Assembly: GCA_035998445.1 (NCBI GenBank)
Contig: DASYHQ010000056.1
Location: 1 to 64,000, forward strand
Length of the DNA: 64,000 nucleotides
DNA from: Tepidisphaeraceae bacterium
GTDB lineage: Bacteria; Planctomycetota; Phycisphaerae; Tepidisphaerales; Tepidisphaeraceae
Direction: 5' to 3'
The notes below the pieces were generated by a model, which saw only the letters and a program-made list of their open reading frames with translations, did no database searches and had not been told where the DNA came from. The stretch's first letter is position 1, and every line of letters starts with the position of its first letter. Positions 7,966-58,000 of this stretch are shown here, one piece after another. Made by a program: the position numbers and the translations under genes.

Positions 7966-8103
7966 CCGTGGCATGGGCGTCTCGCCCATGCATGTGGCTG
8001 GAACGAGTGTCGCTATTGATAGCAAATAGCGCCAACGAAGCGGCAACTAACTAAACAAGTCTTTCGGCCTCAACGCGGTCATGGGCGAGACGCCCATGCT
8101 ACG
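7966..8103. repeat. REPIN-like element, family A, copy 1 (138 bp)
   Basis: Conserved ends CCGTGGCATGGGCGTCTCGC and, inverted, GCGAGACGCCCATGCTACG. Each end is a GTGG tetranucleotide followed by a CATGGGCG/CGCCCATG palindrome. The interior (about 86 bp) contains a GCTATT...AATAGC hairpin and is unrelated to the interiors of the other copies. It lies between convergent genes. Confidence 0.75.
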
Positions 8104-8124
8104 TTCGGATGCGGATCAACCGAT

Positions 8125-10571: not shown

Positions 10572-10710
10572 CCGTGGCATGGGCGTCTCGCCCATGCTCG
10601 AAAAAAGGTGAGAAAGTTCATTTGTGGCCTACGACTCCGTCGGCAACGTCTGCCACAAATAGTGACACCCGTGCTGGCCACACGCATGGGCTCTGGCGCC
10701 CATGCCACGG
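10572..10710. repeat. REPIN-like element, family A, copy 2 (139 bp)
   Basis: Ends CCGTGGCATGGGCGTCTCGC and an inverted, slightly diverged GCATGGGCTCTGGCGCCCAT followed by GCCACGG. The interior carries its own TTTGTGGC/GCCACAAA hairpin, different from the other copies. Confidence 0.75.
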
Positions 10711-11969: not shown

Positions 11970-12700
11970 CGTCATCCTGAGGTACTCCGGAGGATCTCCC
12001 CCCGTATTCACTTTGAACAGGAAGAGATCCTTCGGAGTACCTCAGAGGGTATTTATTCAGTTTGGTCCCCTCTCCTGGTACTCCGGGAGAGGGTTAGGGT
12101 GAGGGTGATTTCGATCGACGGAACTCGTCAGCAGTTCGAAAGCACCCTCACCTAGCCTCTCCCGGAGTACCAGGAGAGGGACCGGAGCGAGCTCGCCGCT
12201 CTTGATAAACACCCTCTCAGGATGACGCACGTGGCTCCTTCGGGGCGGGATGCGCCGCTCCGGCCGTGGCATGGGCGCCAGAGCCCATGCATGTGGATTG
12301 GAAGAGGAAGTACGATTTGGTTGTTGCCGCGCCGACCAAACCGTTGAAACAAAGTAACTCTTCCGGCCTCACCACACGCATGGGCGAGACGCCCATGCCA
12401 CGGTCGGAGCGGACGCGGCGTCGTTATTTAACACCCTCTGAGGTACACCGAAGGATCTCTTCGTCTCACGTAGCACGGGCGGCCCGCCCGTGGAGCCGCG
12501 GTACCCCGCGGTGTCGGACGGTACGCCGTCCGAAGCAAAGCGCGTGAGCGATCTCCTATCCGGTCTTCTCTGAAATCCGTTCGCTGGCGCGATTGCTTAT
12601 TCGGATGGAGTACCATCCGACGCGTCGGCGTACCGACGCCATGGGCGGGCCGCCCATGCTACGGTGAAGTCCGCGCCGAAGCGGCGGCGGCTCCGGCGAG
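11970..12700. repeat. Dense mixed-repeat block, no gene
   Basis: Contains in order: CATCCTGAGGTACTCCGGAG and its inverse GATCCTTCGGAGTACCTC (11972-12048), GGTACTCCGG / CCGGAGTACC hairpins (12065-12180), the family A element at 12264-12403, a CCTCTGAGGTACACCGAAGG unit (12431), GCACGGGCGGCCCGCCCGTG (12476-12495), and a GACGCGTCGGCGTACCGACG palindrome near 12618-12640 followed by ATGGGCGGGCCGCCCAT. Open frames here are repeat translations. Confidence 0.65.
12264..12403. repeat. REPIN-like element, family A, copy 3 (140 bp)
   Basis: Ends CCGTGGCATGGGCGCCAGAG and, inverted, GCATGGGCGAGACGCCCATG then CCACGG. The interior has its own pairing (GGAAGAG / CTCTTCC and TTTGGT / ACCAAA), unrelated to the other copies. 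Confidence 0.75.
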
Positions 12701-21013: not shown

Positions 21014-21150
21014 CCGTGGCATGGGCGTCTCGCCCATGCATGTCAGCAGAAGAGGGGACTCGATTTACTTCAATTGCTCTTAAACGTCTCCTCAACCAAA
21101 AAAGACTTTCTCCTCCGGGCCAGTGCATGGGCGAGACGCCCATGCCACGG
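21014..21150. repeat. REPIN-like element, family A, copy 4 (137 bp)
   Basis: Ends CCGTGGCATGGGCGTCTCGC and GCGAGACGCCCATGCCACGG in inverted orientation. The A/T-rich interior is unrelated to the other copies. It lies between the methyltransferase gene and pgi. Confidence 0.78.
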
Positions 21151-24613: not shown

Positions 24614-25021
24614 TCAAACCGATCCACCGGCCAGCGGCCACGGTTGTCTTATCGTCGCAATTCCTTGTTTAGTGCAGTTTTCGAGATGAAAACCCCGGTT
24701 CGCTCGCCGCCCCACCCCCGCGGCTGATCGTCCGCGCCCCGTGCGAATGTCCGCCGACGCCTCGGCCAGTTGTCGCAAACGCCCGCGGACATTCGCCGCA
24801 CCCGCGTCCAATCTCCCGAGCCCCCGGCGGACCTCCGCCCGCGCTCCGTCCAACTTCCCGCCACTCGCGTCCAACTTCCCCAACCTTGTGCGGACATTCG
24901 CCCGCCCCCCATCCAACTTCCCCCCACCCCCGCGGATATCCGCCCGCCCCCCGTCCAACCGCCCAACATCTCCGCGCACATCCGCGGACCTCTCCACCAG
25001 TCCGCCGCGCGGCCCGTCCAT
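24614..25021 (-). CDS. Doubtful frame with 14-residue tandem repeats
   Basis: From an ATG at 25021 (MDGPRGGLVERS) the frame encodes about six tandem 14-residue units of the form A-[DN]-[VIA]-R-x-x-[VLG]-G-[RK]-L-D-x-[GA]-x, for example ADVRGDVGRLDGGR and ADIRGGGGKLDGGR. Hydrophobic residues at positions 3, 7 and 10 fit two heptads, so a coiled coil is possible. The DNA shows a 42-bp period. A tail (HLENCTKQGIATIRQP) follows the repeats. The opposite strand is also open (Pro/Ser-rich), there is no clear ribosome-binding site, and composition is extreme. It could be a remnant or non-coding minisatellite. Confidence 0.25.
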   Translation of the reverse strand: MDGPRGGLVERSADVRGDVGRLDGGRADIRGGGGKLDGGRANVRTRLGKLDASGGKLDGARAEVRRGLGRLDAGAANVRGRLRQLAEASADIRTGRGRSAAGVGRRANRGFHLENCTKQGIATIRQPWPLAGGSV

Positions 25022-26722: not shown

Positions 26723-26863
26723 GGACATGCCTTGGTTTACCCCATCTCCTCCGGCAGCGGCCCCGCCCTCGCCAATCGATACGCCGCGACCCCCTTCTGC
26801 CGCACGAATTCCGGCGTGAGGTTCACGCCCGCCGAGAAGCGGACGATCGGGAAGCTGGCGTGG

Positions 26864-27051
26864 CCGGGTGCCACGGTACGGTGCTCCGTGCCGTGTCTTG
26901 CCCCGCCCGCGGAAGGCACGGCTTGGAGTACCAAACCGTGGCACCCAGAAAGGCGTCGCGGGCACGGGGTCGGGTGCCACGGTACGGTACTCCGTGCCGT
27001 GTCTTGCCCCCCCGCGGAAGGCACGGCTTGGAGTACCAAACCGTGGCACCC
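26864..27051. repeat. Two REP hairpins left of the RAYT gene
   Basis: Units 26864-26946 and 26971-27051 are in the same orientation. Each begins CGGGTGCCACGGTACGGT and ends GGTTTGGTACTCC-type sequence in inverted form, closing with CCGTGGCACCC. Arms of about 30 bp surround a TCTTGCCCC...GCGGAAGG loop. They are separated by AGAAAGGCGTCGCGGGCACG. Confidence 0.75.
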
Positions 27052-27088
27052 GGAAAGGCGTCCCGGGCGGTGAGCTACTGAAGTTCGG

Positions 27089-27658
27089 TCAGAACAGCGA
27101 ACGGTCGCCGCGTGGTACGAGGTCGAACGCGATCGGGGGATGCCCCGGCTCGTCCTGATCTGCGTAGGCCCGGGCGCTCGACCACACCCATGAGACCGAA
27201 TCGGTCGTCAACCCACGCCGGATCGGGTTGCGGTGGACGTAGGCGATCTTCTCGATCAACTCGACGCCGAGGACATTCCGATCGTACCCGCCGCCCGGCT
27301 GCCAGAAGTGGGCGCGGCGGCCGTCAGGCGCCTGGAGCTTCGAAAGGATCGGCGCGTTCAGCGCTCGCCAGCGGGCGAACACCTCGGCCGCCAGGGGGCG
27401 TTTCAACGCCTGAAGGAACGGCGTCAACGGCTGGCCGCTTGGTTGGCAGACGATCAGGTGGAGGTGGTCCGGCATCACCACCCACGCGATGAGCCGAACC
27501 TCGTGCCGCAGCGTGGCGGCACCGAGGTGGGCGACGAGGCGGTCTTTGATGCGGCCATTACTGAACAGGGGCAAGCGGCGGTAACACGAGAAGGTGAGGA
27601 ACCGGGCCGTGCCTGGGACGTCGCGGCGGCGCATCGTCTTTCGCGGTGGCAGGTCCAT
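27089..27658 (-). CDS. REP-associated tyrosine transposase (RAYT, Y1_Tnp family)
   Basis: 189 residues. The single-strand DNA-cutting Y1 transposase fold is evident: FLTFSCYRRLPLF at residues 20-32, the metal-binding HUH motif in MPDHLHLIV (His65, His67), and the catalytic tyrosine in EKIAYVHRNPIRRGL (Tyr140), followed by WVWSSARAY. These enzymes recognise REP palindromes and are thought to spread them. Two REP hairpins lie on each side within 200 bp (26864-27051 and 27706-27890), the usual REPtron arrangement. The gene appears intact. All catalytic residues I can check are present, so it could be active. Confidence 0.9.
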   Translation of the reverse strand: MDLPPRKTMRRRDVPGTARFLTFSCYRRLPLFSNGRIKDRLVAHLGAATLRHEVRLIAWVVMPDHLHLIVCQPSGQPLTPFLQALKRPLAAEVFARWRALNAPILSKLQAPDGRRAHFWQPGGGYDRNVLGVELIEKIAYVHRNPIRRGLTTDSVSWVWSSARAYADQDEPGHPPIAFDLVPRGDRSLF

Positions 27659-27705
27659 GAAGTCCTGAGCATCATACCGGAGGCTGGAAATATCAAACCA
27701 CGACG

Positions 27706-27890
27706 GGGTGCCACGGTACGGTACGCCGTGCCGTGTCTTGCCCCCCCGCGGAAGGCACGGCTTGGCGTACCAAACCGTGGCACCCGGAAAGGCGTCGCGG
27801 GCAGGGGGCCGGGTGCCACGGTACGGTACGCCGTGCCGTGTCTTTTCCGTCGATCAGAGCACGGCTTGGAGTACCAAACCGTGGCACCCG
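27706..27890. repeat. Two REP hairpins right of the RAYT gene
   Basis: Units 27706-27786 and 27810-27890 belong to the GGTGCCACGG family described at 26864. The spacer GAAAGGCGTCGCGGGCAGGG is nearly the same as on the left side, so the double unit as a whole was copied. Confidence 0.75.
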
Positions 27891-32858: not shown

Positions 32859-32996
32859 CCGTGGCATGGGCGTCCCGCCCATGCTCGTCATGAGGCTGAC
32901 GACAGAATTAGTTGCAGCGGCATGGTCGGCGCAGCAACCCGCAAATGAAATCGCTCGTTCCAATCGACACGCATGGGCGAGACGCCCATGCCACGG
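32859..32996. repeat. REPIN-like element, family A, copy 5 (138 bp)
   Basis: Ends CCGTGGCATGGGCGTCCCGC and, inverted, GCGAGACGCCCATGCCACGG. The interior is unrelated to the other copies and contains a GTTGC/GCAAC stem. It lies between the convergent ankyrin and GH81 genes. Confidence 0.78.
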
Positions 32997-55062: not shown

Positions 55063-58000
55063 ATGGCGGTAGATCCTCGTTTTCTCGTCGAATCTGGTCC
55101 GGAAGTCTTCACCGGCAACGAACTTCTGGTGAAGGGCTGCCTCGAAGTTGAAGGTGGCCTGAACCTCATGACCGGCTATCCCGGTTCCCCGGTCGCAGGC
55201 TTTTTCGACACGATGGGCGACCTCGCCCCCCTGCTGCAGAAGCACGGCGTTCGCGCCTTCCAAGCCAACAACGAAGCCCTCGCGGCCGCGGCACTGAACG
55301 GCAGCCAGATGGCGCCGATCCGCGGCATCATCGCGATGAAGAACGTCGGCCTGCACGTCGCCGCCGACGCGCTGGCGCTGGGCAACCTCGCCGGGGCGCA
55401 CCCGCAGGGTGGCGCGGTCGTGGTGTGCGGTGAAGACCCCTGGTGCGACAGCACGCAGGTGCCGGCCGACAGCCGATTCCTGTGCGAACATTTGCGCATG
55501 CCCGTCGTGGAACCGGGCAACGGCCAGCAGGTGAAGGACTGGATCAACCTGTCGTTCAAGTTGTCGCAGAGCGCCGGCCTGTTCATCGGTTACATCATCA
55601 CCACCGCCCACGCCGACGGCGGCGGCACCGCCTACTGCAAGCCCAACCAGTGGCCGACGCTGAACACGAACGACAAGGTCGCGCTGGAGACGCCGAAGAT
55701 CGATCTGAACAAGCTCCTGCTGCCGCCGCGCACGTGGCAGGAAGAACTGAAGGTGCCCGCCCGCTTCGAAACGACCATGAAGGTCGCGCGGGAACTGGGC
55801 ATCAACCGGATTGAGTATGCCAACCGTGGCATGGGCGTCTCGCCCATGCGTGCAAATAGGCCGGATGATTCAATTGGTAGCAGCGGCGCGGCCGAAGCGA
55901 CTGGCGACAATAACGATTCTCCTACTGCTGACATGCATGGGCGAGACGCCCATGCCACGGTAAAAGCCCCGCTGGGCTTCATCGTCACCGGCATGGGCGG
56001 GCCATATCTCCGCCATATCCTGGCCGACATTGGCCTGGGTGGGCACTTCCCCATCCTGCAGATGGGCATGAGCTACCCGGTCGACGTGAAGCTGGTGGCC
56101 GAGTTCAGCCAGTTGTGCGACAAGATGATCGTGATCGAGGAACGCCGCAGCTTCCTCGAAAAGGGCATTCGCGACGAGGCGTTCCACAAGCTGTCGAACG
56201 CCGATGCCATGGACCTCGTCGGCCGGTTGTACGGCAAGACGTTCCCGCACGATCTGGCCGGCATTCCCGACTCGCGCGGCCTGAACCCCAGTGTGCTGGC
56301 GCAGTACATCATCCCGCTCATCAAGGCGACCGAAGAGGTGCCGCCGGAACTGCGCAACGGCAAGCTGAGCGCCGAGTTGCTTCGCCTGCGCACCGCCAGC
56401 AAACCCAAACTGAACGTGCTGGGCGCCAGCGTGGCGGATCACATCGTCCCCCGCACGCCCACCTTCTGCCCCGGTTGCCCCCACCGCGATAGCTCGGCCG
56501 CCTTGCTGGAAATTCGCAAGAACTTCCAGGACCCCGAGTACATGCTGAAAAACCACGGCACCGGCCCGGTCGACATGGTCGCCCACGGCGACACCGGCTG
56601 CTACACGATGCTGATGTTCGCCCCCACCGAACAGCTCATGCACAACTACAGTGGCATGGGCCTCGGCGCCGGCACGGGCAGCGGCATCGACCCGTTCATC
56701 ACCAACAAGCAGATCGTCTTCATGGGCGATGGCACGTTCTTCCATAGCGGCCAGATCGCCATCAGCAACGCGATCAAGGCCGGGCAGGACATCACCTTCA
56801 TCATCCTGGAGAATGGCACCACCGCGATGACCGGCCACCAGGAACACGCCGGCACCGAGATCGACATGCTCGGCAACCGCAGCTACCTGCAGAACATCGA
56901 GGAGATCTGCCGCGGCCTCGCCGGCACGTCGCCGTTGACGGTCGTCAAGCTGCGCCCCGAGCGCCGCTCGCAGTACAAGAGCGTGCTGGAGAAGACGATC
57001 ATCAGCGACGGCGTGAAGGTGATCATCGCCGACAAGGAGTGCGGCATCACCTACAACCGCACGCAGCTGAAGGAAGAGCGCAAGACGATCAAGAAGCACG
57101 GGTATCTTCCCAAGAAGACCCACATGAACGTGACGCCCGAGGTGTGCGAGCACTGCCTTGAATGCACCAAGGCGACCGCTTGCCCCGGTTTGACGACCGT
57201 GGAGACCGACTACGGGCGCAAGATCGACACCGATCTTACCTGGTGCACGAACGACGGCGCCTGCGAGCGCGTGACGACCAGCAACGACTACGGCGACAGC
57301 GTGAAACCCTGCCCGAGCTTCGAGCAGATCACCGTCGTGCGCCAGCGCCGCCGGCGATACACGCTGCCGCACATGGCGCTCGACAAGCTGCCCGACCCGG
57401 TCGCGATCCACGACCTGTCGGCCCCCGGCTCTGCCTGGCGCGCCCACATGGCGGGCGTGGGCGGCATGGGCATCGGCGTCGTCAACGCGATCCTCGTCCG
57501 CGCCGGTCATAAGCAGGGCTACCGCGTTTTGTTCCAGGACAAGAAGGGCCTGGCCATCCGCAACGGTGGCGTGTACAGCCAGATCACGTTCATGAACGAT
57601 GACGCGGCAGCTCGTTCCACGGGCGGCCCGCCCGTGTCTTCGCCGGCCTCGTCAGACCAGGACAATCACGGGCGGGCCGCCCGTGGTACGACGGACCTCG
57701 AATCGTCCGTCGCCATTCCACCGGAACACGCGACCACCGGCGCCATTCCCTACGCCAAGGCCGACCTGCTGCTCGGCATCGACATCCTGGAAGCCGCCCG
57801 CGCGATTGATCCGCGCGAGCCGTTCCGCGTGGCGCACAAGGATCGCACCTGTGCCGTGCTGAACACGCACAAGCAGCCGACGGTCTTCCACCTGCTGGGC
57901 AAGAGCGACTTCGACCCCGAGCAGTTGCGCCAGGACATCTTCGACACCTGCCGCGTGGAACATTCGTACGCGAAGAATTTGTCGGAACTGTGCGAGCAGC

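Follow-up and report, generated by a model that had tools for sequence, protein, structure and literature searches.

In-frame REPINs in conserved genes of a Tepidisphaeraceae bacterium and a transposase with matching ends embedded in a helicase gene

The window analysed here, the whole stretch of 64,000 nucleotides, carries a gene for a fused indolepyruvate:ferredoxin oxidoreductase (IOR) whose open reading frame is intact and runs uninterrupted across a 137-bp palindromic element of a repeat family that we call family A (Table 1). The ends of the element are two 26-bp perfect inverted copies of CCGTGGCATGGGCGTCTCGCCCATGC, in which CC-GTGG-CATGGGCG-TCT-CGCCCATG places a GT[AG]G tetranucleotide beside a palindrome, as in a REPIN; both the GT[AG]G consensus and GTGG variants have been described for REPs (PMC6006769, PMC3733652). 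The element supplies codons 255–299 (45 residues) and one base of each bordering codon. Its RNA was predicted to fold with a free energy of -83.4 kcal/mol (z = -9.25 relative to dinucleotide shuffles). The codon-usage score was 0.48, a host-like value, on either flank of the insert and -0.10 within it, and the insert therefore looks foreign to the gene. An earlier note on this DNA had described the element as lying within the IOR gene, with an open frame and extra residues at about 254–300; its coordinates and residue range were found to be right, and no frameshift was seen.

Table 1 Features of the family-A system and of the IOR gene in the window
Feature	Position	Strand	Basis and remarks
Family-A REPIN, 137 bp	55824..55960	+	Translates in frame as RGMGVSPM...MHGRDAHAT; sequence and open reading frame, homologue gap, genome-wide family
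Left REP: GTGG tetranucleotide and palindrome CATGGGCG-TCT-CGCCCATG	55824..55849	+	Identical to the family consensus (0 mismatches)
Right REP: inverted copy of the left REP	55935..55960	-	0 mismatches
Host gene: fused indolepyruvate:ferredoxin oxidoreductase, 1313 aa	55063..59004	+	Pfam TPP_enzyme_C, POR, DUF6537; NCBIfam indolepyruvate ferredoxin oxidoreductase models
Second palindromic pair, family B (CACGGGCGGCCCGCCCGTG), unrelated to family A, in frame in IOR	57617..57686	+	Sequence and homologue alignment
Family-A pair outside genes, 139 bp	7966..8104		Sequence
Family-A pair outside genes, 139 bp	10572..10710		Sequence
Family-A pair outside genes, 140 bp	12264..12403		Sequence
Family-A pair outside genes, 137 bp; coding frame still open	21014..21150		Sequence
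Family-A pair outside genes, 138 bp	32859..32996		Sequence

A gap in relatives at the site of the insert had been set beforehand as the test of insertion, and it was found. The spacing between the GINRI and GF(I/V) anchors is 53 residues in this IOR and 8–23 residues in the aligned homologues of relatives, and the IOR of a Phycisphaeraceae metagenome-assembled genome (L096) is likewise short at this loop. Because the loops of relatives are short, we take the insertion to be real. Homologue alignment and the reading frame revealed no loop of equal length in homologues, no frameshift and no split gene. No second copy of the IOR gene was seen in the genome, where all other matches of the IOR protein were to the element peptides in other genes. 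A search by sequence gave no PDB match to the oxidoreductase, and an AlphaFold model of residues 1–480 built with two sequences (pLDDT 33) was too poor for use. The earlier note had recognised the family-A palindrome in this gene and had overlooked a second in-frame palindromic pair, of family B, downstream of it (Table 1). The loop holding the family-B pair varies from 11 to 69 residues across relatives, one of which (L038) has a different repeat, PSPLQGEGRGEG, in the same loop. Another in-frame family-B copy lies elsewhere in the same genome (G000:C41:166852-166912).

All five further places in the window at which family-A pairs had been reported outside genes were located (Table 1). Genome-wide, 149 + 151 family-A half-sites were found with at most one mismatch, compared with 0 for a reversed control pattern, and this abundance is therefore not due to chance. 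Pairs were surveyed in 2.34 Mb read base by base, in which some contigs had been chosen for holding peptide hits. This survey gave 121 inverted pairs, 53 of them of 139 bp, 22 of 140 bp, 19 of 138 bp, 16 of 137 bp and a few of other lengths, so that family A shows the inverted REPs, short spacer and high copy number of REPINs. Two other repeat features of the window were also observed. The region 26855–27840 holds a free-standing gene for a RAYT, the transposase type associated with REPs (minus strand, Y1 domain at 27353–27592, ORF of 254 aa). Each of its sides carries two inverted pairs from a different REP family (GTGCCACGGTACGGTACTCCGTGCCGTG), so that an ordinary REPtron shares the genome with the protein-embedded RAYT described below. 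A repeat search also returned an imperfect array of 42-bp units (GCGGACATTCGCC...CGTCCAACTTCCC) at 24743–25006.

A pair was called in-gene when coding sequence of one strand, continuous and open, was present on both sides according to a codon model trained on long ORFs. Seven family-A pairs in the 2.34 Mb were called in this way: two in valS (C61) and one each in dnaE (C18), purL (C22), carB (C58), smc (C39) and the IOR gene. All seven are of 137 bp, lie in a single orientation and a single codon phase, are free of stops and encode RGMGVSPM...HGRDAHAT. Their shared phase is NNC|CGT GGC ATG ... GCC ACG G|NN, that is, phase 2 on the left and phase 1 on the right. The suggestion that REP spread can create peptide was thus correct and understated, the IOR copy being one of seven in one frame. 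Left out of this count were a 139-bp pair at C41:230782 (in a gene and continuous) and one at C59:4360 (in a gene with a frameshift), as flank scores were weak (0.09–0.28). A search of the genome with a profile of the seven peptides recovered these seven, and no additional copy that is read in that phase as part of a long ORF. The in-gene fraction of 7/121 is too high, and the associated Fisher p of 1.8e-7 for length optimistic, because some contigs had been fetched for their peptide hits; with the whole genome holding roughly 150 pairs, about 5% of them would be in genes.

The same test was applied, over the same 2.34 Mb, to the other REP families. In-gene cases numbered 1/115 clusters for GTAG, 1/101 for GTGG (at the same place as the GTAG one), 0/28 for GTAC, 2/149 for the CTCTCCC family (one in frame) and 2/34 for family B. 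The idea that these families invade genes equally was ruled out by their 0–2 in-gene cases each, and family A stands out among REP families for its in-gene copies. By phmmer, the first ValS insert falls between residues 204 and 210 of Thermus thermophilus ValRS (1gax) and the second between residues 598 and 602, both within gaps that separate the aligned blocks. The first ValS site is empty in the near relatives G003, G008 and G019, with 0–15 nt between the flanks. Among 150 genomes of the class no in-frame family-A REPIN was found elsewhere; the matches were weak, three in G016 and one in G086, and all in short frames. Repeats of other kinds were also noted in two of the host genes: in ValS an in-frame CTCTCCC-type repeat (TPSPGTPGEGRG...PPPAYRERG; L097, G000:C61:127124-127234) lies between the two family-A REPINs, and the carB ORF (C58:4692-8648; L100, G000:C58) holds two more in-frame repeats of another kind, GAGLRARP...GGHGGPPL, in addition to its family-A REPIN.

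Comparison of the in-gene copies with one another showed that their ends differ by 1.1% and their spacers by about 40%, for which a simple copy-and-paste burst gives no account. Spacer differences were spread evenly over codon positions 1, 2 and 3 (0.40, 0.40 and 0.41), and the pN/pS of the in-gene spacers was 0.87, the two wrong frames used as controls giving 0.87 and 0.77. Neither test detected peptide-level selection on the in-gene spacers. Since change is equal across codon positions and pN/pS resembles that of wrong frames, the constraint on the peptide is to stay open and nothing more. The REP ends of all seven copies are near-invariant even at synonymous sites, and it may be asked whether gene conversion or hypervariable spacers underlie this pattern. 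Because synonymous sites are invariant too, what keeps the ends nearly identical must be constraint at the DNA level, or homogenisation, rather than constraint on the peptide. These tests on the spacers, together with the gap in homologues, support the proposal of the earlier note that the element was inserted, is read in frame and is tolerated as a linker. Its alternative suggestion of a recent insertion gained no support, as the IOR copy, with nearly identical ends, differs by about 20% or more over the whole element from every other copy read.

Only one Y1 gene found in the genome has family-A ends close by. This gene, a RAYT of 695 bp at G000:C58:1754-2448 (L065/L267), places a Y1_Tnp domain between two family-A REPs, both with 0 mismatches, and so gives this genome a RAYT gene alongside its cognate REPs. 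Its ORF is open through both ends as RGMGVSPM..., in the same frame as the in-gene REPINs, and its length, like 137, equals 2 mod 3. To either side the ORF runs on into a DinG/YoaA-type helicase of 927 aa. The earlier note, which had seen the in-frame element, had overlooked this matching transposase and its own in-frame position within a helicase. Both the helicase and the Y1 domains were recognised by Pfam and NCBIfam; Pfam Y1_Tnp scored above its cut-off, and NCBIfam REP_Tyr_transpos (E = 4.8e-20, 71.9 bits) under its curated cut-off of 80. A RAYT occupies the same helicase position in 6 more genomes of the family, and the helicase is without a RAYT in 16/24 matched family genomes. The possibility that the REPIN is an internal deletion of the C58 RAYT was ruled out, because the subterminal sequence of the RAYT is unlike the REPIN spacer; the REPINs are therefore not simple deletions of a copy of this gene.

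The embedding extends beyond this genome. In a set of 198 class genomes, the clade's 19 best members, namely the C58 RAYT and the 18 closest to it, all lie in host-gene ORFs of 471–1354 aa, and the HUH motif MPNH(V/I)H and the catalytic tyrosine characteristic of RAYTs are invariant in 19/19. Their hosts are DinG (7), ValS at the position of the first ValS REPIN of this genome (9), ValS at another site (1), EtfB (1) and a DUF1156 methyltransferase (1). ORFs of at least 700 aa make up 17/19 of the clade and 14/150 of the class RAYTs listed (median 213 aa), an enrichment with p of about 1e-13 that is indicative only, the members of the clade not being independent. The stronger statement that every relative of the C58 RAYT is embedded holds for the 18 closest in the class; close relatives in family f48, of 199–240 aa, are often free-standing. 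Embedding is therefore a trait of lineages and not of the protein fold, as close relatives in other families of the phylum often stand free. The RAYT tree is weakly supported, and both one origin per host gene and repeated entry fit it. Fusions were also observed outside this clade. A second RAYT family, flanked by GTAG REPs (VGQAFLPV), provides a C-terminal fusion in which a ThiD2/TMP-TENI gene of thiamine synthesis runs in frame into the RAYT (L064, G000:C64:26344-29508). More distant RAYTs in family f5 (L288–L291) lie in frame inside Eco57I-like methyltransferases, surrounded by tandem DTGIPVC/DTDIPVC peptides that are apparently REP-encoded.

The best explanation as a whole, which we hold with considerable confidence, is that the IOR insert is a REPIN that was most likely spread by the C58 RAYT and has survived in frame as a tolerated linker. 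The sequences show the insertion, its open frame, the common phase, the embedding of a RAYT whose ends match, and relatives in which the sites are empty. By analogy with known systems, the C58 RAYT is most likely the enzyme that moves family-A REPINs. The insert is a non-autonomous pair of REPs, most likely spread by a Y1 (HUH, single-tyrosine) RAYT-type transposase that has the same ends and resides in the DinG-like helicase gene. Judging from REP/RAYT biology (PMC8266576, PMC6006769), the RAYT would cleave and rejoin REP single strands and thereby spread REPINs, of which those in genes would survive only where the net insertion is a multiple of three, has no stop and falls in a tolerant loop. 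The survivors would form a 137-bp coding sublineage whose one orientation and phase are those of the read-through frame of the RAYT itself. In IOR, 45 extra residues would be made, most likely a linker that the enzyme tolerates and that contributes no function itself. We infer that the fusion proteins are made and working, that the transposase is active while inside the helicase and that its embedding guards against loss. Since the RAYT ORF reads through both REP ends in the host frame, the transposase would be expressed with its host, and its loss by frameshift or nonsense mutation would break the host gene. More broadly, a clade of RAYTs in the class may use essential or conserved proteins (DinG, ValS, EtfB, methyltransferases) as its home, its REPINs inheriting a readable frame and spreading inside proteins, a proposal whose chances we would place just short of even.

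The alternative that fares best is that the in-gene copies are a coding-adapted sublineage, derived from or moved together with the in-frame RAYT, which prefers genes and whose frame is kept by selection. The in-gene copies, with their common peptide, are mostly mutual nearest neighbours (74–82%), the RAYT ORF is in the same frame, and a single frame in all seven copies has p of about 5e-4 if drawn among the 2–5 open frames of each copy. However, the spacers lack 3-base periodicity and have a pN/pS near 1, this frame is also open in some of the 137-bp copies that lie outside genes, and common descent from a few insertable copies could yield the same pattern. We regard this adaptation as possible, though tentatively and at well below even chances. 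Recruitment of the peptide to a function, as a regulatory linker, a partner-binding site or a DNA or RNA signal within the gene, would agree with the central roles of the host genes and with the near-invariant ends, but the invariance of synonymous sites points to DNA-level constraint or homogenisation, the spacer evolves as if neutral, the hosts are six unrelated genes and relatives manage without the segment, all of which makes recruitment improbable. The highly stable hairpin could also suggest that the segment is lost before the protein is synthesised or mature, whether through intron-like excision of RNA, bypass of the hairpin by ribosomes or splicing of the intein kind. Such a loss would exert no selection for openness, yet 7/7 in-gene copies are in frame and stop-free, whereas of nine 137-bp copies outside genes 44% are open in this phase, and this counts against removal. 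Inspection by eye of the IOR junctions N|RGMG... and ...HAT|VKAP likewise found no intein splice motifs (N-terminal Cys/Ser, C-terminal His-Asn) or catalytic residues, and we consider removal very improbable. An assembly or annotation artefact or a pseudogene might be suspected of an assembly in 64 contigs, but is scarcely credible given the intact 1313-aa frame with host-like codons on both sides, the single gene copy seen, the six parallel cases in the same genome and the embedding of RAYTs in 19 separate assemblies.

By itself, the IOR insert is a fresh case of a known kind, a linker that probably has no function. Intragenic GTAG/CGTC REPs were catalogued in 2013 by Di Nocera et al. in replication, repair and other ORFs and were argued to lie in loops or linkers (PMC3733652). 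That catalogue concerns other species, whereas here one family is followed, of a single length and phase, with homologue gaps tested and a link to an embedded RAYT. The Rickettsia palindromic elements (RPEs) of Ogata et al. (2000) are described as palindromes of about 150 bp that lie in frame in unrelated genes and each encode a conserved peptide (cited in PMC10969869). The seven 137-bp insertions are alike in this in-frame placement of a palindrome of such length, the likeness being to RPEs as described. Family A matches a planctomycete REP/RAYT system and has a transposase with matching ends; RPEs are not known to have one. Inteins and homing endonucleases resemble the embedded RAYT in that essential genes carry, at sites that recur, an in-frame enzyme of a mobile element, while relatives have empty alleles. 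Unlike inteins, the enzyme here is a Y1 transposase and the segment is expected to remain in the protein.

An open question named in the literature is how RAYTs persist in genomes without behaving as insertion sequences (PMC6006769). A RAYT in frame in an essential gene would offer a simple and testable answer, as it would be translated with its host and shielded from most inactivating mutations. In-frame REPINs would likewise serve as natural, repeated tests of where ValS, DNA polymerase III, PurL, CarB and SMC tolerate about 45 extra residues. In the REPtron literature (PMC6006769, PMC8266576, PMC3733652), at least one survey of the family set aside Y1 proteins of unexpected length, taking them for fusions or errors of annotation, so that embedded RAYTs may be under-reported. 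In the open-access literature we found no report of a RAYT/HUH transposase embedded in valS or another essential gene, or accompanied by an in-frame REPIN sublineage. REPs within genes are already known; within that literature, we found no description of in-frame insertion in a single phase tied to a protein-embedded RAYT. The closest comparison is with the REPINs or BIMEs mobilised by RAYTs (TnpAREP) and with REPtrons (PMC6006769, PMC8266576, PMC3733652), which share with family A the GT[AG]G tetranucleotide and palindrome in inverted pairs, the hundreds of half-sites per genome and the single RAYT gene whose ends match. The REPtrons described so far stand free as genes, have mainly intergenic REPs and reportedly do not transpose as a unit (PMC6006769, PMC8266576, PMC3733652), whereas the RAYT of the present genome forms an internal, in-frame part of a host protein and its REPINs include an in-frame genic sublineage. 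Seen in its genome context, this is a REP/RAYT system living inside proteins rather than between genes.
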